32,614 nt of DNA from Bacillota bacterium (GTDB lineage: Bacteria; Bacillota; UBA4882; UBA8346), in NCBI GenBank assembly GCA_012728785.1, contig JAAYEK010000185.1, forward strand, positions 1 to 32,614. Reading direction: 5' to 3'. A model generated the notes under the pieces. The model made no database searches, had not been told where the DNA came from, and saw nothing but the letters and a program-made list of their open reading frames with translations. This document shows, in pieces, positions 279-11,657 of the stretch (position 1 is its first letter; each line of letters starts with the position of its first letter). The translations under genes were made by a program, and so were the position numbers.

Positions 279-932
279 TTATCTATTTGATAATATATAG
301 TCCTTGTATGGCTGATAATATTTTTCATATTCTTGTACGTTTAATATACTTCTTAATGTTCTAAATTCTTGAAAGTAATAAAAATATTCTTCCTTCCAGT
401 CGATATTAGCTATTTTATAAGCTTTAGTAGCGTAATTATCAATAGCTTGATAATAAGCATTACCTCTCTCGTCACCAGTTTTTTTGTTTACTTCATTACG
501 TAGCTCCTGTCTATAACTTCGCATTTCTTTAAAATTATTACCGAAAATATCATCGATTCTATATGGTTCTATCCCGTATGAATGTTCTTTCATAAATTGA
601 ACGTACAATTCACGAGCCTTGCTTTCATAAAAAGGATTTCCTTGGTTCGCAATCTTGTAGTATTCCCTTATTTTTAGTATTTTTGAATGCGGCAAAAACC
701 TACCTATATTTGCCTGGTAAAGTACCTGATATTGTTTAAACTCCTCCGGTGTTCTTGTATTAAAAAATAGCATATGATAAATGAATATCTGAAATGCAGA
801 AACAATCATGTCTTTATTGAACTTAAATGGAAGTTTGTCAATGCTGAGAAAAAAATCATATTCATACTCACATCCATTCCCAACAACATCTGCAAAATCA
901 TGTACTATTTTATGAGCTTCCAAAAAATTCAT
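279..932 (-). CDS. Hypothetical protein, orphan gene in a hairpin-flanked element
   Basis: A 217-residue protein I do not recognise. It is soluble-looking, with no signal peptide or membrane segment. It is rich in Tyr, Phe, Lys, Glu and Asn, with long charged helical stretches; the C-terminal half, from about residue 100, is especially charged and Tyr-rich. It may be an all-helical protein. The start ATG has only a weak AGGTAGG-type Shine-Dalgarno upstream. The gene is markedly AT-rich while both flanks are GC-rich and hairpin-forming, the usual look of a cassette-type or otherwise transferred gene. No neighbouring gene suggests a role, and no function is proposed. Confidence 0.6.
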   Translation of the reverse strand: MNFLEAHKIVHDFADVVGNGCEYEYDFFLSIDKLPFKFNKDMIVSAFQIFIYHMLFFNTRTPEEFKQYQVLYQANIGRFLPHSKILKIREYYKIANQGNPFYESKARELYVQFMKEHSYGIEPYRIDDIFGNNFKEMRSYRQELRNEVNKKTGDERGNAYYQAIDNYATKAYKIANIDWKEEYFYYFQEFRTLRSILNVQEYEKYYQPYKDYILSNR

Positions 933-1043
933 GATTATACCTACCTAATTTTGTTGTTAGACCCGTGATTCCCAATTTCACAAATAATACACTTCTTCGA
1001 ATGAGCTTCCAAACTGGCCGTGCCCACGACGGGCCGGCCACGA

Positions 1044-1063
1044 GGCTCAACATGGCGACTAAC
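1044..1063 (-). repeat. Right arm of imperfect 20-bp inverted repeat
   Basis: On the minus strand this reads GTTAGTCGCCATGTTGAGCC, matching the arm at 174-193 at 18 of 20 positions. Just inside it, 1016-1039 forms a GC-rich stem-loop: GGCCG pairs with CGGCC, one T is bulged, and GCCC pairs with GGGC around the loop ACGAC. The single bulged base in a GC stem resembles the hairpin on the left side. Confidence 0.5.
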
Positions 1064-1082
1064 TATCAATATCCGATCATAT

Positions 1083-1119
1083 ATTCGTAATAAACGTTAC
1101 TCTAACGCTTATTACGAAT
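1083..1119. repeat. Long AT-rich palindrome
   Basis: ATTCGTAATAA at 1083-1093 is the exact reverse complement of TTATTACGAAT at 1109-1119. Inside it, GTTA at 1096-1099 pairs with TAAC at 1103-1106, leaving a CTC loop. That gives 15 Watson-Crick pairs with only one 2-nt internal mismatch on each side. There is no T-run on either side, so it is not a classical terminator. It could be a cruciform, a dyad operator or part of the adjacent element. Confidence 0.65.
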
Positions 1120-1272
1120 TATATACGTAGTAAAAATAACCCTAATTTTTCCCAATAGCGAACCTTCCCCTCGTTCTCCCTCCGGCTCAACAATAACATT
1201 TTACCATACAAAACATGAATTAACAATTTTCGTAACCGAGGTTGAATAATGTAAATCTCCAATTACAGAAAA

Positions 1273-1515
1273 ATTCCATCAAATTAATAATTCATTCCGG
1301 AAAAATATCTATTCCATCGGGAATATAAAATATTCCTTCAAGAAAATGAAATATTCCACCAAGAAAATTAGATATTCATTTAAGAACGTAAAGATTCTTG
1401 ATGGAATAATGCATATTCCACCTGGAATGATAGATATTCCATCATGAAAATGGAATCTTCCATCCGGATATTGCAGATTCTTGATGGAAGCTACAATATT
1501 TTGGAAAGCAAATGA
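1273..1515. repeat. Degenerate 21-bp tandem repeat array, about 11-12 units
   Basis: ATTC-type unit starts recur at 1273, 1290/1294, 1311, 1332, 1353, 1374, 1394, 1415, 1436, 1457, 1477 and 1498, a period of 21 bp (twice 20). The core is ATTCC, four bases, then GGAAT or a GAAAA-type block, so many units are short inverted repeats, for example ATTCCACCTGGAAT at 1415-1428. The two 20-bp steps break any 7-codon reading frame, and no convincing ORF spans the array, so it appears non-coding. About two helical turns per unit would place each dyad on the same DNA face. 1516-1660 is AT-rich with nothing I can identify. Confidence 0.75.
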
Positions 1516-1660
1516 AGATAGCCATCAAAACATTGACAAAATCCCGGTGAATATAATTGATTCCAATTACCCAATCCAATATTAAAATAATAACAAAAAA
1601 TGTTAAATAATTATTACAATCCAATTAATGCTATGATATATTTATTACGGCAAAGTTGAA

Positions 1661-3004
1661 CTAATCCCCCTGCCTTCCCCTACTCAACCGATAAGTCCAA
1701 TATAGCATCCCCACAACCGCCGGAGCCAGCAACCAGGCCCACCACGCTCCCGAAAAAGTTTTGAAAATCCAGAAACGCAGTATGTTTCCGCCATCTAGAA
1801 AACTAGTAATAACCCCCTGATACTCTCCGAATCCAAAATTAAACTTCCGCGCCAAATCAGTATAAATGATCGCCATATGTGAAGCCACATATAGGTTTCC
1901 GATGATAATGGGAATCCCAATAATCACCGAGCGGATGATATTGCCCCTGGTTGCTACCACCACAATCACTACCGTTCCCACAATATTTGCCAAGTCCCCC
2001 AAAGGGATAAATTTAATACCGGGTAAGATCAGAGCTAAAATCAAGGCCAACGGCATCAATAACAAAGAGGTTACTACCACCGAAGTATGGCCGATGATAA
2101 CCGCATGATCCAACCCAATATACATCTCTCCGGCTTGGGAAAACTTTTTTCCCAGATAACCTTTCATCTGTTCGGATAAGGGCATTAATCCCCGGCCCAA
2201 AATACCGCCCATCATCGGTAGGATATAAATTACCGCAGCGATTGAAAACCCTAATTCCAATAATAGCTTGAGATCATAACCTGCTCCCCAACCCAACAAC
2301 AGACCCATCAGCAATCCAATTACCATTGGTTCGCCAAAAACACCCAGCTTGGCTCGGATTTTTTCCGGATTGGCATCCCAGCGATTCAATCCGGGAACCC
2401 TAGCCAACAGCCAATCTCCGATCATCCCCAGCGGATAATAAGTTATTGACGATAAGGTACTGATACTGATCCCCGGTAATCCCGAAAACCTTTGGACTGC
2501 CCCTGCCGCCCAGTCGGCCAGTTTTAAAATGATAACCGCCGTGAGTAACGCCGCCGCAACACCCAACATCTCATTCCCGGTGATCTCCGCTACCACCGCC
2601 CCGGCAAAAATGAAATGCCAAAAATTCCAGATATCGATATTCACAGTTTTGGTTACTTTCAAAAACAACATTGCAACATTTAATAACATAATCAACCCAA
2701 TTAGTAACGGAGTCAATTGATACGACCAAGTAATGGCGGCTAGCGGCGGCAAACCCACATCAAGGACGTTAAAACCAAGGCCGGTGTTTTTGACCAGACT
2801 CTCCACCGCCGGACCGATCTGAGCTACGAAAAAATCAAAGATCGTAAAAATGCCGATGAACCCAATCCCAATTGTTAATGCCGATTTTAGAGCATCACTG
2901 ATCTTCATCCGGAAAATTAACGCCAAGACGAATAAAATCATCGGTAACAACACAAAGGGTTTAAAACTCAATAAGTAAGTAATGATTTGACTTAGGCTCT
3001 CCAT
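1661..3004 (-). CDS. gatC: PTS system galactitol-type EIIC permease (orphan)
   Basis: A 447-residue polytopic membrane protein of the galactitol/sugar PTS IIC (GatC) family. It would form the membrane channel that takes up and phosphorylates a sugar or polyol together with IIA and IIB partners. The sequence is hydrophobic throughout, with roughly 10-12 membrane segments, and shows the family's N-terminal helix pair, the conserved loop VLDVGLPPLAAITWS, and the GLDHAVIIGHTSVV region near residue 295. Length fits the family (about 430-460). The Shine-Dalgarno AAAAGGAG precedes the ATG. No gatA or gatB is adjacent: the upstream same-strand gene is a GH30 enzyme with a terminator between. Substrate is inferred only from family; related IIC proteins also take other pentitols or sugars. 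Confidence 0.88.
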   Translation of the reverse strand: MESLSQIITYLLSFKPFVLLPMILFVLALIFRMKISDALKSALTIGIGFIGIFTIFDFFVAQIGPAVESLVKNTGLGFNVLDVGLPPLAAITWSYQLTPLLIGLIMLLNVAMLFLKVTKTVNIDIWNFWHFIFAGAVVAEITGNEMLGVAAALLTAVIILKLADWAAGAVQRFSGLPGISISTLSSITYYPLGMIGDWLLARVPGLNRWDANPEKIRAKLGVFGEPMVIGLLMGLLLGWGAGYDLKLLLELGFSIAAVIYILPMMGGILGRGLMPLSEQMKGYLGKKFSQAGEMYIGLDHAVIIGHTSVVVTSLLLMPLALILALILPGIKFIPLGDLANIVGTVVIVVVATRGNIIRSVIIGIPIIIGNLYVASHMAIIYTDLARKFNFGFGEYQGVITSFLDGGNILRFWIFKTFSGAWWAWLLAPAVVGMLYWTYRLSRGRQGD

Positions 3005-3110
3005 GGTTGCTCCTTTTAATTATGTAAGTTATCTGCTTAATCGAATTACATTCTTATACTATACCTGTTACAGCTGGTTTTTTAAATAGGAAATTAAAGC
3101 AATCCAATAT

Positions 3111-3146
3111 AAAAAGACCGCCCTCTCCGGTCTGGAAAGGACGGCC
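3111..3146 (-). terminator. Rho-independent terminator after the GH30 gene
   Basis: On the minus strand, GGCCGTCCT pairs with AGGGCGGTC (nine pairs, two G-U), with an inner TCC/GGA, followed directly by TTTTT. It lies about 25 bp past the GH30 stop and separates that gene from gatC. Confidence 0.85.
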
Positions 3147-3169
3147 CGACCAAGTTGCAATATCAATTC

Positions 3170-4597
3170 TTACGGCAGTACCAACGTACTCCAGGATTGG
3201 GGCGGTAGGGTTATCGTAACGGCTTGTTTTTCCAGTTTAATCTTAACCTCTTTCTCACTTTCGGTTGCATTCTGCATCACCAGCGCGATCCCGCCGTCCG
3301 GATTTTGAAAAGCGATAGCGTCGCTCCAGGCCCCGTACGGTTTGACACTGATTAAGCGCGCGCCCGGTTTGACAAAAAAGCTGAAATGTTTGAAAGCATA
3401 ATACATCGGAGTGTAAATCAACGACTTGGTCTTCCTGTCCACTACCAAAGGAGCATTTTGGGGCCAAGGTCTTCTTGAGTCGATACTCTTGCCTTCCTCA
3501 TCCAACACCATATTCCAGAGCATATAAGAGTTTACGCCCTGTTCGAAATAGTCTTTAACCTTCTTCCAGGTATATACCCCGTAATTCCAATCGTTTTGCG
3601 GTTTATTCGGGTCAAACCTGGCTTTCCAATACCAATTACCGCATTCCGTCTCAGTCTGCATAAGCTTTTTCTCGGGATAGTTTTTGCGGGTCCAAGCTAC
3701 CGAATGCAATCCGTCCCATTGAAATCCCACGGTGGTAATATATTTGTTAGCCTCGGCATCACTCAAGACAGTCTTCGGGTATTTGGTATAGTCCGCATCC
3801 TGCATTGTCCCTAACCAAATCTCCCCCTTTACCCCCCGTTCTTGGAATAAGGGGCCGATATGGTCCTTGATGAAAGCTAGGAACTGGTATTCTGTCCACA
3901 AACAACTGGGATAGTTGGTTTCAATGGTCGGTTCGTTCTGAACGGCCACGGCGTAGGCGTCGATTCCTTCCTTTTGATAAGCTTCGAGAAAACGGGCCAG
4001 GTACAAAGCGAAGGCCTGATAGATCTGGGGATCGCCTTTCATGTAACCGCCGTCATATTCTCCATTAGTCTTCATCCAAGTCGGAGGCGTCCAGACTGAA
4101 CCCCAGATCTTCAGATCCGGTCTATATTGCATCGCCGCTTTTATGTAAGGGATTAAACAACCTTGATCCCGCTGAATGGAAAAATCCTTCATCTCAAAAT
4201 CGTCTTTGGTCTCATTTAAGGTATAGCGGTCAATGGCGTAGTCGCTGGCGCCGATGGGAACCCGGCAAATATTAAGTTTAGCGCCTTCTTGGGGATCAAA
4301 AAGGGCCTTTAAAGCCTCTTCCCTTTGTTCCGGGGTCAAGATGGAAAGGGCCTCCCAGCCTTTTTCGTTGAAAGCTCCTCCAAAACCATCAATCTCTTGG
4401 TAGACGGTTTTCTTATCGATTTCGATGGTAAAATCCTTCCCCTTGGCCTTGATAATAGGTAACGAGCCCCCGCTTCGCCAGGGTTCGGCCTCGGTTGTCA
4501 CGGTCCAAATTACTTCCGAAGCTGCAAATCCGACAGGTAAAAAGCATTGCCAGAGAAGCAAGCAGAGAAAAGTCAGTATTACCGGAGATTTTCGCAT
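3170..4597 (-). CDS. Secreted GH30 family glycoside hydrolase
   Basis: A 475-residue glycosidase of the GH30 clan (glucosylceramidase, beta-1,6-glucanase and xylanase relatives), acting on beta-linked glycans outside the cytoplasm. Residues 1-25 form a Sec signal peptide ending near GFAA. The (beta/alpha)8 barrel begins near residue 60 with the family's IDGFGGAFNEKG. WGSVWTPPTWMK is at about 174-186. The acid/base Glu lies in VQNEP (about Glu222). QTETECG at about 314-320 should hold the nucleophile (probably Glu316). A short beta-sandwich follows to the C-terminus. I chose the ATG at 4597 because AAGGAGG sits 8 nt upstream and the signal peptide starts there; an in-frame start 21 codons earlier lacks this. 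Exact substrate cannot be told from the sequence. Confidence 0.9.
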   Translation of the reverse strand: MRKSPVILTFLCLLLWQCFLPVGFAASEVIWTVTTEAEPWRSGGSLPIIKAKGKDFTIEIDKKTVYQEIDGFGGAFNEKGWEALSILTPEQREEALKALFDPQEGAKLNICRVPIGASDYAIDRYTLNETKDDFEMKDFSIQRDQGCLIPYIKAAMQYRPDLKIWGSVWTPPTWMKTNGEYDGGYMKGDPQIYQAFALYLARFLEAYQKEGIDAYAVAVQNEPTIETNYPSCLWTEYQFLAFIKDHIGPLFQERGVKGEIWLGTMQDADYTKYPKTVLSDAEANKYITTVGFQWDGLHSVAWTRKNYPEKKLMQTETECGNWYWKARFDPNKPQNDWNYGVYTWKKVKDYFEQGVNSYMLWNMVLDEEGKSIDSRRPWPQNAPLVVDRKTKSLIYTPMYYAFKHFSFFVKPGARLISVKPYGAWSDAIAFQNPDGGIALVMQNATESEKEVKIKLEKQAVTITLPPQSWSTLVLP

Positions 4598-5793: not shown

Positions 5794-6858
5794 TCAGCTG
5801 CCGCTCCTCCGTCCTAGCCAAATCGAATTATGCCCCGGATCACAAGCCACGGTCCGGCCTAGGGACTCAATCCTTCGGGTGATACAACCCCGGCATTCGG
5901 CCGCTTCTTCCCCCAGGCAGATTTTGTTGGGATAAATCTCATATTCCGGTCGATACTTTTTAGGGGTCAGATTGGGCATTACCACATTGGCCCCGGCCCG
6001 GAGCGCCGCCTCCCGTCCCAAGGGATTGATGCTTCCCAAGGCAGTGGTAGCCGGAATCAAGGCCTGGGGTAATATAAGTCTGGTTAAAGCCACCATCAAA
6101 CAAGCCTGCTCCAGTGTACCACCGGGTTCTTGCCCCAACGGAGTCTCCGGATGGGGAATAAACGGACCAATCCCGACCATCTCCGCCTGAAGCTCACCGG
6201 CTAGTTTCAAATCATACCATAAAGTCTCCGCGGTTTGTCCGGGCAGGCCCACCATGAACCCGGTTCCCACTTGATAGTCGAGTTCTTTCAAAATTTTAAG
6301 CAAAGCTACTCTTTTCACCAAAGACTGTCCGGGATGGAGCCGTTCATAGAGCAAAGGATCAGCGGTTTCATGCCGCATCAGATATCTTTCGGCGCCAGCG
6401 GAGCGCCATAATTCATAATCCTGGGGTATCCGCTGGCCAACGCTCAAAGTGACCACCAAACCAAGCTTTTTGATCTCCCGGACAATCTCGGCGATAGTAT
6501 CCCCGCTGTAAGCCGGATCTTCACCGGATTGTAGAACCACCGTTTTATAACCTAGCTCAGCCCCGTTCTCGGCTGCAGCAATGATCTCCGCCGGAGTCAT
6601 CCGGTAACGGGACACTTTCCCGTTCTCCCGCCGCAAACCGCAATATAAACAATTATTCCGGCAGTAGTTGGAGAACTCGATTAATCCCCGCAGATGAATG
6701 GAGTCCCCCACCGTCTCCGACCGCAATCCATCGGCGGCCTCCACTACTTGTCGCGCTTCGGCGCTTGTTGGATCAGCGATCAGTCTCAGAGCGAACTCCC
6801 GGTCATTAATAATTCTTTGCCCGGCATTGGTTTCGTTAACATTGACATTACCGCCCAT
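5794..6858 (-). CDS. hydE: [FeFe]-hydrogenase maturase HydE, radical SAM
   Basis: A 354-residue radical SAM enzyme that helps build the dithiomethylamine-bridged 2Fe subcluster of the [FeFe]-hydrogenase H-cluster; recent work on the family has it acting on the HydG product. The cluster motif CRNNCLYC supplies Cys66, Cys70 and Cys73 (CX3CX2C). The SAM-binding region includes LQSGEDPAY. The C-terminal CLGEEAAECRGC has CX7CX2C spacing, matching the second, non-essential cluster site of Thermotoga HydE. Length is typical (about 350). AAAGGAG lies 7 nt before the ATG. It is the last gene of the hydG-hydF-TM1266-hydE run, 11 bp after the TM1266-type gene. The hydrogenase itself is not in the window. 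Confidence 0.96.
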   Translation of the reverse strand: MGGNVNVNETNAGQRIINDREFALRLIADPTSAEARQVVEAADGLRSETVGDSIHLRGLIEFSNYCRNNCLYCGLRRENGKVSRYRMTPAEIIAAAENGAELGYKTVVLQSGEDPAYSGDTIAEIVREIKKLGLVVTLSVGQRIPQDYELWRSAGAERYLMRHETADPLLYERLHPGQSLVKRVALLKILKELDYQVGTGFMVGLPGQTAETLWYDLKLAGELQAEMVGIGPFIPHPETPLGQEPGGTLEQACLMVALTRLILPQALIPATTALGSINPLGREAALRAGANVVMPNLTPKKYRPEYEIYPNKICLGEEAAECRGCITRRIESLGRTVACDPGHNSIWLGRRSGS

Positions 6859-6869
6859 CGTCTACTCCT

Positions 6870-7127
6870 TTAACTCTTCTTGGCCATGGTAGCTTTGGCG
6901 TTGACCCCTTTGATATTTCCCAACCTTCCGGTAAGCGTATTGATCTCATCCTCCCCACCATCAACGATTAACGAAAGCACCCCTACATTCCTCTCCCGGT
7001 GCGGAATCCCCATCCTCCCCACAACAATCCGCCCAAACTCGCTAATCACAGCGTTTACTTTCTCCTGTACCTCCTGAGGCCGCTCCAAAATAACGGCAAT
7101 GACACCCAACCTTTTTTCAGTATTCAT
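6870..7127 (-). CDS. TM1266-type iron-only hydrogenase system regulator
   Basis: An 85-residue small protein of the TM1266/iron-only hydrogenase system regulator family, which is almost always found beside hyd maturation genes and has an ACT/NikR C-terminal-like ferredoxin fold. The features are RLGVIAVILERP at the N-terminus, FGRIVVGRMGIPHRERNVGVLSLIVDG in the centre and GRLGNIKGVNAKATMAKKS at the end. There is no separate DNA-binding domain, so regulator is a database name rather than something the sequence shows. GAGGAGG is 5 nt upstream of the ATG. It sits between hydF and hydE, preceded by an unusual 387-bp gap. Confidence 0.93.
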   Translation of the reverse strand: MNTEKRLGVIAVILERPQEVQEKVNAVISEFGRIVVGRMGIPHRERNVGVLSLIVDGGEDEINTLTGRLGNIKGVNAKATMAKKS

Positions 7128-7514
7128 AAAAACCTCCTCGTCAGTGACTAACCATTCTCAGATTTTTATTCAATTTTATCTTCAAACTAAAATTTATTAC
7201 CAACACGCCTTCATGGATGAAGGCGGCGACGCTTCTTTTCATGGATGAAAAACAGCGGTCGCCATCGGAAGACTATACTTTATTGCCAGTCAGAAGGACA
7301 GGGATGTCGAAGACCCTCTAAAAACTTGGATGAATTGCAGGAGGTCCGGAACCACGCGGGTCCGGCGCATTTTGGTGACTTTTGTGCGGTCAAAAGTCAC
7401 TCGCCGCCGAAACAGTGGACCGACATAATCGACTTTCATCGTTTTTATTAATTCACATATTTTTGCTATGTTTAACTAGTAATTTTAGTAATAATGTAAG
7501 CCAGTTGTAATGTC
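7128..7514. other. Hairpin-rich non-coding gap between hydF and the TM1266-type gene
   Basis: This stretch has no credible gene. Its middle (about 7205-7430) is more GC-rich than its edges and packed with inverted repeats. GCCTTCAT/ATGAAGGC is at 7207-7224; TTTTCAT/ATGAAAA is at 7236-7251 and shares the core TTCATGGATGAA with the first. GTGACTTTTG/CAAAAGTCAC at 7375-7400 is a perfect 10-bp stem with a 6-nt loop. GGTCCGG at 7343-7349 recurs as GGGTCCGG at 7358-7365. It may be a dispersed repeat insertion, a processed intercistronic RNA or a degraded gene. A 68-codon plus-strand frame across it (7245-7451) has no family-like features. Confidence 0.6.
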
Positions 7515-8753
7515 TCACCCAAATTCCTCCAACAACGCTTTCAACTCCGGAAAGGGCCTTAACGCCCGAGGAAAAGCCCCTTGCGCATAAGCGATGAACA
7601 CCCCATAATTTACTATCGACACATTCCGCTCCATAGCTAAACCTATCCGGTACTTCATCTCCCGCCGGTTAAGCATACACCCGCCGCAATGAATCACCAT
7701 CCGATACTTGGATAGATCTTTCGGTAAACTTAAACCGCTGGCCCATTCGAAATTGATTTCGCCCCCAACCAACTGGTTTAACCACCGGGGGATCTTCACT
7801 GTTCCAATATCATCACACTGCCGGTGATGGGTACAGCCTTCGGCGATCAAAACACTGTCTCCGGGCTTGAGCTGTTCAACCGCCTTAACTCCTCTGACCA
7901 ATTCCGGCAGATCTCCTTTATAGCGGGCAAAAAGAATCGAAAATGAAGTTAACGGGATTTCCTCCGGTGTATCCTCGGCCACTCTCTTAAACGCCTGAGA
8001 ATCAGTGATCACCAAAGCCGGTTTCTTCCCTAAATGCTCCAAGGTTTCCTTTAATCGATCCTCCTTAGTGGTTATCGCCACACCGCCCCGATCCAATAGC
8101 TCCCGGATCACCTGTTGTTGAGGGAGGATTAACCGGCCTTTAGGCGCCGCCGCATCAATCGGGATCACCAACACCACAAAATCTCCCGGTTTGATTAAAT
8201 CACCGACTAAAGATCCTTCTCTGTCTTCATTGGGAGCGGTTCGGATCAGCGCCGTTTTTAGTCCGGCAATACCTGCTCCGGTCGTCGCCGATACCTCCAC
8301 CAAGTCCAATTGAAGTTGCTTTTGCCATTCTAAACGTTTTGCCCTGTCATATCCAGCCAAATCAACTTTGTTAACGACTCCAACCACCGGAATGTTTTTG
8401 GCCCGGATGGTTTGGAGCAGTTCCCTCTCAAAATCGGTAACCCCCGTCAAACTGTCCAAGACCAATAACGCTAAGTCGGTTTTATTCAGTACCTTATAGG
8501 TCCGTTCAACCCTCAGTTTACCCAATGGCCCGCTATCATCAAGACCCGCGGTGTCAATCAACGTCACTGGACCCAAAGGCAACAATTCCATAGCCTTGGT
8601 CACCGGATCAGTGGTAGTTCCCGGCTCCGCCGAAACCAAAGCCACGGTTTGATTGGTCAAAGCATTGATCAAACTCGACTTTCCCGCATTTCGCCGCCCG
8701 AAGATGGCAATCTGGAGCCGGGAACTATTAGGAGTTTCATTTAAGTTACCCAT
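7515..8753 (-). CDS. hydF: [FeFe]-hydrogenase maturation GTPase HydF
   Basis: A 412-residue GTPase and scaffold that receives the 2Fe subcluster made by HydE and HydG and delivers it to apo-hydrogenase. The N-terminal GTPase has Walker A GRRNAGKSSLINAL, switch region PGTTTDPV, G3 DTAG and G4 NKVD. A dimerisation domain follows from about residue 180. The C-terminal cluster domain has GCTHHRQC and then HCGGCMLNRREM, the family's CxH...HCxxC ligand set. I place the start at the ATG at 8753, with GGAGG 5 nt upstream; a TTG four codons earlier is in frame but would include the Shine-Dalgarno. The hydG stop is about 20 bp upstream, so the two are co-transcribed. Confidence 0.96.
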   Translation of the reverse strand: MGNLNETPNSSRLQIAIFGRRNAGKSSLINALTNQTVALVSAEPGTTTDPVTKAMELLPLGPVTLIDTAGLDDSGPLGKLRVERTYKVLNKTDLALLVLDSLTGVTDFERELLQTIRAKNIPVVGVVNKVDLAGYDRAKRLEWQKQLQLDLVEVSATTGAGIAGLKTALIRTAPNEDREGSLVGDLIKPGDFVVLVIPIDAAAPKGRLILPQQQVIRELLDRGGVAITTKEDRLKETLEHLGKKPALVITDSQAFKRVAEDTPEEIPLTSFSILFARYKGDLPELVRGVKAVEQLKPGDSVLIAEGCTHHRQCDDIGTVKIPRWLNQLVGGEINFEWASGLSLPKDLSKYRMVIHCGGCMLNRREMKYRIGLAMERNVSIVNYGVFIAYAQGAFPRALRPFPELKALLEEFG

Positions 8754-8773
8754 GAAAACCTCCAAAACTTGGA

Positions 8774-10222
8774 TTATACATACTGATCCCGTTCGCCTTT
8801 TTCCAACTTCTTTAATGCCTGATCCACGAACTCCCTGGTTTTTTCGTCTTCAATCTCCAATAAATGCTTGGCGATGACCGCCTCGCCCGCTTGCTTCGTC
8901 TCCGGGCTGGCATAATCCAATAAATACTCCTTCAAAGTACAGATAGCGTTGGGCATACAAAAATTATGGACAAACTTAGATTTGGCCAATCCCATGAAAT
9001 GCTCCCCGGTCCGGCCCTTCCGGTAACAACCGGTGCAAAAGGAAGGAATATTCCCCGCCAAGCACGTTTCCCGGATCACATCATCCAGGGAGCGGACATC
9101 CCCCAGTTGAAACTGTTCCTTATCCGGCATGGCATTGGCCACCGCTTCCTGGTATCCCCCAACCCCGATCCGGCTTCCGGCGTCAATCTGCGAAATCCCC
9201 AGCGGAATAACCTCCTTTCGCGCCGCCGCGCTTTCACGGGCAGTCAGAATCATCCCCGTATAAGGAATCGCCAACCGGATCACCGCCACCAGCTTCTTAA
9301 AATCAGCGTCACTCACCACATATTCCGGATTGGAGGCCAAAGGCGTATTGACGGCCGGTTGAATCCTAGGAAAAGAGATGGTATGCGGACCAACCCCGTT
9401 ATACTTACTCTCCAGATGAATTGTATGATATAACAATCCCATGGCCTCAAACCGCCAGTCATAGAGGCCGAACAAGACTCCGATTCCCACATCGTCCACC
9501 CCGGCGTCCAAAGCCCGGTCATGGCAGTATAAACGCCAGCGGTAATGCCCCTTAATGGTATTAGCCGGATGATATTTCCGGTAGGTCTCGTGATGATAGG
9601 TCTCCTGGAATACTTGAAAAGTCCCGATGCCTACCTCTTTGAGTTGGCGCAATTCCTCCCTGGTTAAAGGGGCGCAATTAATATTGGCCCGTCGGATCTC
9701 ACCATGCTTACTCTTGACGCTATATACCTGACGGACCGATTCACAGATATAATCGATATTGGTCTCCGGCGACTCCCCGTATACCAATACCGTCCGTTTC
9801 TGCCCCTCACCGATCATGATTTCTATCTCGCGCCGGAGTTCCTCCATGGTTAAGGTCTTGCGGTTAATGGCATGGTTGGAACTGCGGTAACCACAATAAC
9901 CGCAATTATTGGCGCACTTATCGCTGATATAAAGCGGCGCAAAAAAGACTATCCGGTCACCATATACCTCCCGTTTCAACTTATTGGCCAAGGCATACAT
10001 CTCGGCGATGGTTTCCGGGTCACGGTTCTGTAGTAAAATCGCCATCTCTTCCGGTTCCAGCCGGACCTGGGAGGCTGCTTTCTCCAAAACTCTCCGAACA
10101 TCAGTGGGCTTGGGATTTTCCCATTTGTTTAATAGGCTCCAAATCAACTCGTCATCGATAAAATCCCGCTCCATAGCGTCATATTCCGCAAAATCATCCC
10201 GGTATTTCTCTAAAAAGCTCAT
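8774..10222 (-). CDS. hydG: [FeFe]-hydrogenase maturase HydG, tyrosine lyase
   Basis: A 482-residue radical SAM enzyme that cleaves tyrosine to p-cresol and dehydroglycine and yields the CO and CN ligands of the H-cluster. The radical SAM cluster is CANNCGYC (Cys103, Cys107, Cys110). The C-terminal second cluster is CTGC, 22 residues, then C (CX2CX22C), the signature that separates HydG from ThiH. YGESPETNIDY and the TIM barrel between fit, and length is typical (about 470). It is first in the maturation operon. AAAGGGGG precedes the ATG and lies in a predicted RNA pairing with the upstream leader, so translation may be controlled. Confidence 0.97.
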   Translation of the reverse strand: MSFLEKYRDDFAEYDAMERDFIDDELIWSLLNKWENPKPTDVRRVLEKAASQVRLEPEEMAILLQNRDPETIAEMYALANKLKREVYGDRIVFFAPLYISDKCANNCGYCGYRSSNHAINRKTLTMEELRREIEIMIGEGQKRTVLVYGESPETNIDYICESVRQVYSVKSKHGEIRRANINCAPLTREELRQLKEVGIGTFQVFQETYHHETYRKYHPANTIKGHYRWRLYCHDRALDAGVDDVGIGVLFGLYDWRFEAMGLLYHTIHLESKYNGVGPHTISFPRIQPAVNTPLASNPEYVVSDADFKKLVAVIRLAIPYTGMILTARESAAARKEVIPLGISQIDAGSRIGVGGYQEAVANAMPDKEQFQLGDVRSLDDVIRETCLAGNIPSFCTGCYRKGRTGEHFMGLAKSKFVHNFCMPNAICTLKEYLLDYASPETKQAGEAVIAKHLLEIEDEKTREFVDQALKKLEKGERDQYV

Positions 10223-10414
10223 CTTGTGTTCCCCCTTTATATATTAAAAACCCTTCTTCGAGGACGGGGAACACCTCAAAAAGGGTCGGTTTGACACTAA
10301 TGACACCTTTTATTCGAATGCTCTCCAGCCTCAGACTGCTCTTTGGCTTCAGAACTACTCTACTTTTTCCGAGTTCACTGCCGATGACTGTCCAAATCAC
10401 GGGCGGCAAACCTT
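10223..10414 (-). promoter_or_regulatory. Structured leader RNA of hydG, riboswitch-like, class unknown
   Basis: About 190 nt between a strong promoter and hydG. Read on the minus strand, GGTTTG (10412-10407) near the 5' end is complementary to CAAACC (10293-10288), closing a domain of about 125 nt that holds TGCCG/CGGCA and AGCC/GGCT helices. Next, CCCTTTTTGAGG and CCTCGAAGAAGGG (10285-10251) form a hairpin followed by TTTTT (10250-10246), like an intrinsic terminator. Its loop GTGTTCCCC (10274-10266) is exactly complementary to GGGGAACAC (10234-10226), which contains the hydG Shine-Dalgarno. I find no T-box UGGN sequence, no cobalamin box and no other riboswitch consensus I know. Confidence 0.55.
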
Positions 10415-10421
10415 TTGATTT

Positions 10422-10450
10422 ATTTTACCATATTGTGATAAAAAGTACAA
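10422..10450 (-). promoter_or_regulatory. Sigma-A promoter of the hyd maturation operon
   Basis: On the minus strand TTGTAC (10450-10445) and TAAAAT (10427-10422) with a 17-bp spacer. Transcription should start near 10415, just before the GGTTTG that opens the structured leader. Confidence 0.7.
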
Positions 10451-10497: not shown

Positions 10498-10527
10498 TTG
10501 ACAATTTACAAACCATCATGATACGAT
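10498..10527 (+). promoter_or_regulatory. Candidate promoter of the SGNH esterase gene
   Basis: TTGACA at 10498-10503 and TACGAT at 10522-10527 with an 18-bp spacer, facing away from the hyd promoter. The -35 is perfect, the -10 weak. A perfect CCCGGC/GCCGGG hairpin follows at 10547-10560 in the leader. Confidence 0.45.
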
Positions 10528-10619
10528 TTTTTAAGTAGTCGTCCTCCCCGGCTTGCCGGGATACGTTAAAGGATGAAAATTTGGTTATATCTCAATACTT
10601 CTTCCAAGGAGCGGTTCGG

Positions 10620-11657
10620 ATGTTAAACAAAAAAGATTTTATAACGGATAATATTAAAGAAAGGGACTGGCAGATCATACCCGCCGATTCTCCCGATCTT
10701 TACTATATCGGCAGAATCGATGACCTGGACCCGAAAGCGCCGGTACTTGTTTGGCAAGGGACCGAGGTACGCGCCCGTTTCACTGGAAAAAACATCGGTT
10801 TACGGTTTTCCGAGGTTTTGGGTCAAAACTTTTATAATGTAATCATCGATGGCCAAATCAAACTGCTTAAACTAAAGGAAGCAAAGGAAATCAACGATTA
10901 TCTCCTTGCCGATACTTTGCCTGACGGAACACACGATTTGATTCTTTTTAAAAGAAGCGAGGCAATGTCCGGACACGCTGTTTTTCAGGGCTTGTTCCTG
11001 GAAAAATCGGCTCAACTCGGTCCCAAACCGGAGCCCCTTCCGTTGCGTATTGAGTTTTACGGCGATTCCATAACCGCCGGGGCTTGTAATGAAGATCCTT
11101 GGGACGACCAATACGAAGATTGTTCAACTCATAATAATTACCTGTCTTATGCTGCTATTACTGCCAGAAATTTCAATGCAGAATATTTCAATATTGCAGT
11201 AAGTGGGACCGGCTTATGTCATAGCTGGAACCCGATTATGATGCCGGAAATCTATGATAAAATTTATCCGGACAGCACTAGCCCTAAGTATGGGTTTTCG
11301 GGAAAAAAACCGGAGATTGTTCTTATTAATCTCGGGCAAAATGATCAAAGCTACCCAGTATCGATTAACAAACCCTTCCCAAGAAATTATGCGGAAAAAT
11401 ACGTGGAATTTGTCAGTAAGATCCGTAGTTTATACCCTGAGAGCCATATTGTTTGCGCAATCGGAGGAATGGATTGTTATCATGCATCGGCGGAGTTTCG
11501 GGCTGCTTTCCAACAAGCGGTTCAAAAACTTAAAAATACTGATCCAAAAATCCATTCGTTTGTCTTTGAAGCGTATACCTTAACTCATCCCCGAGTGGAT
11601 ACACATCTGAAGTTAGCTTCGGAATTGACTGCCTTTCTAAAAACGATTTTGGTTTAA
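10620..11657 (+). CDS. SGNH/GDSL carbohydrate esterase, CE2-like
   Basis: A 345-residue two-domain esterase that should remove acetyl groups from plant polysaccharides or oligosaccharides. Residues 1 to about 120 form the jelly-roll domain of CE2 enzymes (YYIGRIDDL, VLVWQGTEVRARFTGKNIGLRF). The SGNH domain follows: GDSITAG carries the nucleophile Ser, NIAVSGTG the oxyanion Gly, NLGQNDQS the Asn, and VDTHLK near the C-terminus the Asp-His pair. No signal peptide is visible, so it probably acts in the cytoplasm on imported oligosaccharides. The ATG at 10620 has AAGGAG 8 nt upstream; the in-frame start 13 codons earlier lacks one. It is monocistronic. Assignment as CE2-type is firm, substrate is not. 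Confidence 0.88.
   Translation: MLNKKDFITDNIKERDWQIIPADSPDLYYIGRIDDLDPKAPVLVWQGTEVRARFTGKNIGLRFSEVLGQNFYNVIIDGQIKLLKLKEAKEINDYLLADTLPDGTHDLILFKRSEAMSGHAVFQGLFLEKSAQLGPKPEPLPLRIEFYGDSITAGACNEDPWDDQYEDCSTHNNYLSYAAITARNFNAEYFNIAVSGTGLCHSWNPIMMPEIYDKIYPDSTSPKYGFSGKKPEIVLINLGQNDQSYPVSINKPFPRNYAEKYVEFVSKIRSLYPESHIVCAIGGMDCYHASAEFRAAFQQAVQKLKNTDPKIHSFVFEAYTLTHPRVDTHLKLASELTAFLKTILV

Follow-up and report, generated by a model that had tools for sequence, protein, structure and literature searches.

A leader RNA upstream of hydG belongs to an uncatalogued hairpin family that probably attenuates [FeFe]-hydrogenase maturation operons in Bacillota

HydG uses tyrosine to make carbon monoxide and cyanide as ligands, so mistimed synthesis should be costly. 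How H-cluster assembly is matched to need in cells is, to our knowledge, poorly understood. The window studied here (the whole stretch of DNA analysed, 32,614 nucleotides from a Bacillota bacterium) raises this question through the long leader that precedes hydG. The initial annotation had read a promoter, TTGTAC-17-TAAAAT, in front of this gene, and we confirmed it on the minus strand, with ~190 nt of leader downstream. After the leader come hydG, then hydF, a TM1266-like gene and hydE, as follows.

TTGTAC 10445-10450 and TAAAAT 10422-10427, minus strand: promoter TTGTAC-17-TAAAAT, sigma-70-type, read from the sequence
10433..10450, minus strand: predicted Rex-type operator (TTGTACTTTTTATCACAA, pattern TTGT-N10-ACAA) that overlaps both the -35 element and the spacer of the promoter
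8774..10222, minus strand: hydG, with its ATG at 10222 (TIGR03955, 504.6 bits)
7515..8765, minus strand: hydF (TIGR03918)
6870..7127, minus strand: TM1266-like putative regulator of the iron-only hydrogenase system (TIGR03959, PF21699, PDB 2nzc)
5794..6858, minus strand: hydE (TIGR03956)

Between hydF and the TM1266-like gene of the window lie 387 bp (7128-7514) without a clear gene; in relatives it is hydG and hydF that are set apart, by about 1.4-1.8 kb of other sequence. On the plus strand, a good sigma-70-like promoter, TTGACA-18-TACGAT (10498-10527), faces away from hydG and is directed towards a divergent acetylxylan-esterase-like gene (10581-11657).

Sixty related genomes were searched for hydG and the upstream regions were read. 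A window-type leader was present in eight of these relatives, seven from the same family and one (G013) from the same class, and the promoter, two hairpins that we term P1 and P2, and a terminator upstream of hydG were common to all nine genomes (the window and the eight relatives). The position of the promoter relative to the leader was also the same. The window-type leader occurs as a single copy per genome and is not directly upstream of the other hydG genes of the class. Its fold is better than those of dinucleotide shuffles (z -3.1).

10372-10412, minus strand: hairpin P1 of about 15 bp, in which the UUU/GAA and GUGA/UCAU segments are invariant, identified by covariation with hand-aligned arms
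10320-10355, minus strand: hairpin P2, the core motif, with two tandem purine (G.A type) internal loops 4 bp apart

The middle of P1 covaries freely between its invariant segments, and both sides change in 7 of its 15 pairs. Scored together, P1 and P2 gave a covariation of 0.352 vs 0.138 in shuffles (0/500), with the P1 arms aligned by hand, which favours structure. The initial annotation had proposed that GGTTTG and CAAACC close a multi-helix domain, and that a lack of conservation or covariation of its helices in relatives would refute the idea. The leader passed this test, but with helices other than the two named: the long-range pairing is not conserved, and GGTTTG pairs locally with AACC/AACT to close P1. 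The broader reading stood: the H-cluster maturation operon is preceded by a riboswitch-like leader that is structured and conserved and has a terminator. The proposed helices were wrong, and P2, the core of the element, had been overlooked.

Also missed was the Rex-type operator. The pattern TTGT-N10-ACAA lies over the promoter in eight of the nine leader genomes, with inner bases that are degenerate in most, and in G007 it is a perfect palindrome (TTGTGATTTTCATCACAA). We looked for an 18-bp operator of the TTGTGA-N6-TCACAA type at the promoter together with a rex gene in the genome, and both were found, a Rex protein being encoded by the window's genome (NF003995, 224 bits). In the window family the operator would add NADH/NAD+ control of initiation.

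Outside the class, a model of P1 plus P2 (R1) returned known genomes only, plus a coding-repeat artefact in G410, and a pattern scan of the genome contigs returned the same lineage and unrelated matches that were judged chance. Relatives of P2 were first exposed by a full-sensitivity scan of other hydG loci with the P1 plus P2 model; genus g8 has them in front of hydF and genus g12 in front of hydE, where those genes lead the operon. The general plan of P2 is a stem broken by two tandem G.A internal loops at a spacing of exactly 4 bp, and because each strand reads CUGA-N4-RAGG, the strand consensus, the hairpin is nearly two-fold symmetric. A strict descriptor of this plan had no match in 169 kb of shuffled sequence and 22 matches in the 1.5 Mb of 60 Bacillota hydG loci outside the window's family. 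Sixteen of the 22 were 54-235 nt upstream of a maturation gene in the sense orientation (binomial 4e-19, the expected share being the about 3.5% of the 1.5 Mb that falls in the 300 nt ahead of maturation genes). A covariance model of the hairpin, R2, which matches the window P2 with 31.3 bits at 10321-10354, found 18 held-out matches (E <= 0.5), every one of them in front of hydG or a TM1266-like gene. In whole genomes nearly all credible R2 matches were at maturation loci and the rest were in coding sequence, with two exceptions (G293 and G171). Matches in G203, G148, G399, G284, G142, G319:C1:2109868, G317:C60 and others were rejected as chance because they fall in coding sequence, several of them in GGCTGA-type repeats.

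At least one copy of the motif was present in 24 of the 60 sampled hydG loci, two of these at weak scores only, and the hairpin lies upstream of hydG, hydF, hydE or the TM1266-like gene in about 18 family labels of Bacillota, 14 of which have strong R2 matches. Tandem or double copies occur in G126, G171, G293, G188, G088, G212, G043, G159, G260 and G387. Across 58 distinct sequences 94.5% of cells pair and covariation was 0.731, against 0.261 when shuffled and at most 0.20 when slid, counts that lean to structure because the alignment was fitted to the model and its first members were picked by a pairing descriptor. The genomic association with maturation genes is independent of these counts. 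The internal loops are mostly GA or AA, and the unpaired purines are invariant while the stems vary freely. In the window-type leader P1 occupies the place of the first tandem-GA hairpin of other family members. One leader, at 2783-2990 of locus L103 (G299), is intermediate, with a tandem-GA first hairpin and a window-type CCCTTTTTGAGAATG terminator. What was found is the pattern expected of a riboswitch, a conserved, covarying, aptamer-like RNA before functionally related genes in varied arrangements. The hydG leader is a real RNA control element of a previously uncatalogued hairpin family.

The manner in which this element might control hydG was considered from the features that lie between P2 and the start codon.

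10250-10286, minus strand: intrinsic terminator hairpin with a U-run to 10246 (fold -17.5 kcal/mol)
10266-10274, minus strand: terminator loop GTGTTCCCC, exactly complementary to GGGGAACAC
10226-10234, minus strand: GGGGAACAC, covering the hydG ribosome binding site; only the window genome has this match to the terminator loop
10266..10275, minus strand: terminator 5' arm and loop GGTGTTCCCC, antiterminator partner of P2 by sequence complementarity
10317..10326, minus strand: GGAGAGCAUU, the 3' strand of P2, which also serves the antiterminator; in relatives it is complementary to the terminator 5' arm and loop

The hairpin with a T tail that had been noted before hydG was confirmed, and a terminator was found in all nine leader genomes. 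It is not the end of another gene, because the upstream gene in the window is divergent. As in an attenuation leader, the window and the eight relatives have an intrinsic terminator downstream of the promoter that serves the gene itself and ahead of the start codon. The complementarity between the loop and the Shine-Dalgarno region, which had been put forward as a pseudoknot, is exact in the window, where the 9-bp run exceeds chance for the window sequence (0/2000 mononucleotide shuffles), but the eight relatives that share the leader do not have it, their Watson-Crick runs being only 2-6 bp. A Shine-Dalgarno pseudoknot as a conserved or general expression platform was rejected on these grounds.

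The terminator loop of window-type leaders reads UGUUCUCC or similar, and its conserved partner is the P2 3' strand. The duplexes between the two, of -10 to -21 kcal/mol, were better than shuffles in eight of nine genomes (P 0.001-0.01). The window genome is the exception, its antiterminator being the weakest of the group (P 0.26), and its loop/Shine-Dalgarno match may be a local addition where the antiterminator has weakened. In G013 the antiterminator pairing is longer, about 15 bp, and is interrupted by a single 2-nt bulge. The antiterminator was dominant in 9/9 leaders before the terminator 3' arm exists (0.72-0.99), and in the full-length leader P2 and the terminator were dominant in 7/9.

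In a comparison of 34 leaders, with terminator arms chosen by hand, which favours the model, the pairing of each P2 strand with its own terminator beat pairing with those of other leaders (-12.7 vs -9.9 kcal/mol, 0/20000 permutations). The same test gave 3/20000 without the window family and 0/20000 with one leader per genus. Example pairs are GGGGUAAG/CUUACCC (G088), GGGGCACAA/UUGUGCC (G212) and GAGGAAUUAGG/CCUAACUUUCC (G180). Within the window family alone the partner swap was not significant (P 0.21) because the sequences are too similar; it is the wider family that gives significance. Among the leaders compared at least four, G103, G171, G193 and G368, had no good antiterminator partner. 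Computation thus yields a mutually exclusive antiterminator, although some members lack an evident one. Computation also shows the family of hairpins, the covariation within it, its association with maturation genes and the complementarity of terminator and antiterminator.

We propose that when P2 is folded, presumably stabilised by a sensed factor, its 3' strand would be held and the terminator would form, such that transcription would stop before hydG. When P2 is unstabilised, the 3' strand would pair with the terminator 5' arm and loop as an antiterminator and the polymerase would read through. Termination in the cell and a bound factor that stabilises P2, and hence the OFF sign of the switch, are what we infer. 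Comparison between genomes supports the proposed mechanism well. In some relatives the P2 3' strand may compete with a hairpin that would mask the ribosome binding site, and in G293, G337 and G070 the competing hairpin does cover this site. At 5949-5982 of locus L133 (G111) the motif lies directly against the hydG start codon and its 3' strand is followed immediately by the ribosome binding site, which suggests that translation is controlled directly in this lineage. Some members thus seem to use a transcriptional platform and others a translational one.

It is likely that the leader represents a new family of RNAs that attenuate [FeFe]-hydrogenase maturation operons in cis, in which P2 is the sensing part of a terminator switch. 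The hairpin family probably switches maturation genes off by an early transcription stop in many Bacillota. An attenuator that needs no factor, with a fixed read-through or a response to transcription speed or temperature, would account for both alternative folds being predicted from sequence alone. However, conserved unpaired GA and exact spacing over 18 families would be superfluous in a fixed attenuator, and the tandem duplication also speaks against a device of this kind, which we regard as unlikely.

In Rfam 15 the window leader had no match at gathering thresholds and one irrelevant match up to E = 10, and the other family members likewise had no match at gathering scores and only chance-level matches below them. 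The initial annotation could match the leader to no known class, and the Rfam check bore this out. The open literature, to which the search was confined, held no description of the element, and an earlier description in subscription papers or preprints is possible. A T-box had seemed attractive to the initial annotation, and the consumption of tyrosine by HydG does favour a T-box or a tyrosine leader-peptide attenuator; T-box leaders are also alike in placing a terminator/antiterminator leader before an amino-acid-related gene. Unlike them, the hydG leader has no specifier loop, no UGGN bulge and no T-box model match at E <= 10. Nor does it contain a conserved leader ORF with a ribosome binding site; the long open frame that runs through it in the window is broken in some relatives and shifted in G007. 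We consider either form of tyrosine-linked attenuation highly improbable.

The two complete leaders that sit away from maturation genes bear on the nature of the factor. In locus L226 (G293 C1:1038600-1045000), two tandem-GA hairpins and a terminator (649-837) stand before a lone ECF transporter S component (PF12822). This ECF-S gene is located just after parB. In locus L220 (G171 C32:32100-35577), from a genome flagged for 7% contamination, positions 550-3285 comprise a tandem leader and, after it, an SsuABC-like operon of permease, ATPase and SsuA-family binding protein. No further transporter contexts were found in four genomes of the order of G171. A pathway together with transporters is the typical spread of metabolite riboswitches, and the G293 ECF-S leader is a possible pointer to the ligand.

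That the same complete leader stands before ECF-S, the SsuABC-like operon and the maturation genes argues for a direct small-molecule riboswitch, in which the tandem-GA hairpin would bind a metabolite or ion and give feedback on both H-cluster maturation and the uptake of the ligand or a precursor. The invariance of the unpaired purines in stems that are free to vary fits this reading, as does the presence of one or two tandem copies, which some riboswitches also have. However, there are just two transporter cases, and binding pockets usually sit at a multi-helix junction, of which the leader has no conserved example. An aptamer made only of helices and small internal loops would, moreover, be a modest one, a point against the attenuator model as such. 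We put direct binding of a small molecule at about an even chance.

The near-dyad of the hairpin, with CUGA-N4-RAGG on each strand, would suit a protein-dependent attenuator, in which a regulator, most simply the TM1266-like protein, binds and stabilises the hairpin and often autoregulates. The TM1266-like gene is first after the leader in about 16 genomes, and its product is annotated as a putative regulator and has a small ACT/ferredoxin-like fold (PDB 2nzc). The fold is, however, the sole source of the RNA-binding idea, and we know of no RNA-binding protein for this leader. Eleven motif loci have no TM1266-like gene within reach, a count made at the scope of the locus such that the gene may lie elsewhere in the genome, and TM1266 adjacency is alike with and without the motif (22/33 vs 26/37 loci), with no correlation. 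Recognition by a protein is a tentative alternative. The effector may be a protein, TM1266 for instance, or a small molecule, and we slightly prefer the latter.

We lean towards the view that this near-dyad hairpin with two tandem G.A loops is a new, widespread riboswitch class that senses an H-cluster-linked metabolite or ion, or else that TM1266 reads the RNA, with control of maturation and two transporters across Bacillota. An RNA shared by hydG, hydE, hydF and the TM1266 gene is a direct handle on the control of H-cluster assembly, and it suggests what the uncharacterised TM1266 family might do. The orphan RNA is defined by a searchable model and a strict consensus that can be used for ligand hunting, and the leader could act as a control part in hydrogen-producing bacteria.

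Rex binding has been documented in Caldicellulosiruptor bescii upstream of the CopG/hydG unit, such that a Rex operator is found there, as here, at a hydG unit, in that case one led by a CopG-annotated gene (PMC6391272). In the available part of that paper repression is described at the DNA level only and a leader RNA is unmentioned (PMC6391272). The f88 genomes, which are probably Caldicellulosiruptor, have the CopG-led hydG gene order of C. bescii and carry the RNA motif. The LicT/BglG RAT, ANTAR, PyrR and TRAP leaders are alike in having small recognition hairpins, sometimes in tandem, that overlap a terminator switch. They differ in having no sequence or Rfam match to this leader, and, unlike in protein-binding antiterminator leaders, the P2 3' strand is here shared with the antiterminator. 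Compared with the transcription-attenuating riboswitches of Bacillota, recognition here falls to a simple hairpin that carries two tandem-GA loops and lacks both a conserved multi-helix junction and an Rfam match. The layout is otherwise alike, with a promoter, a conserved hairpin domain, an exclusive antiterminator and terminator, and then the gene, and those riboswitches likewise serve a biosynthetic pathway and transporters through a platform that varies between transcription and translation.
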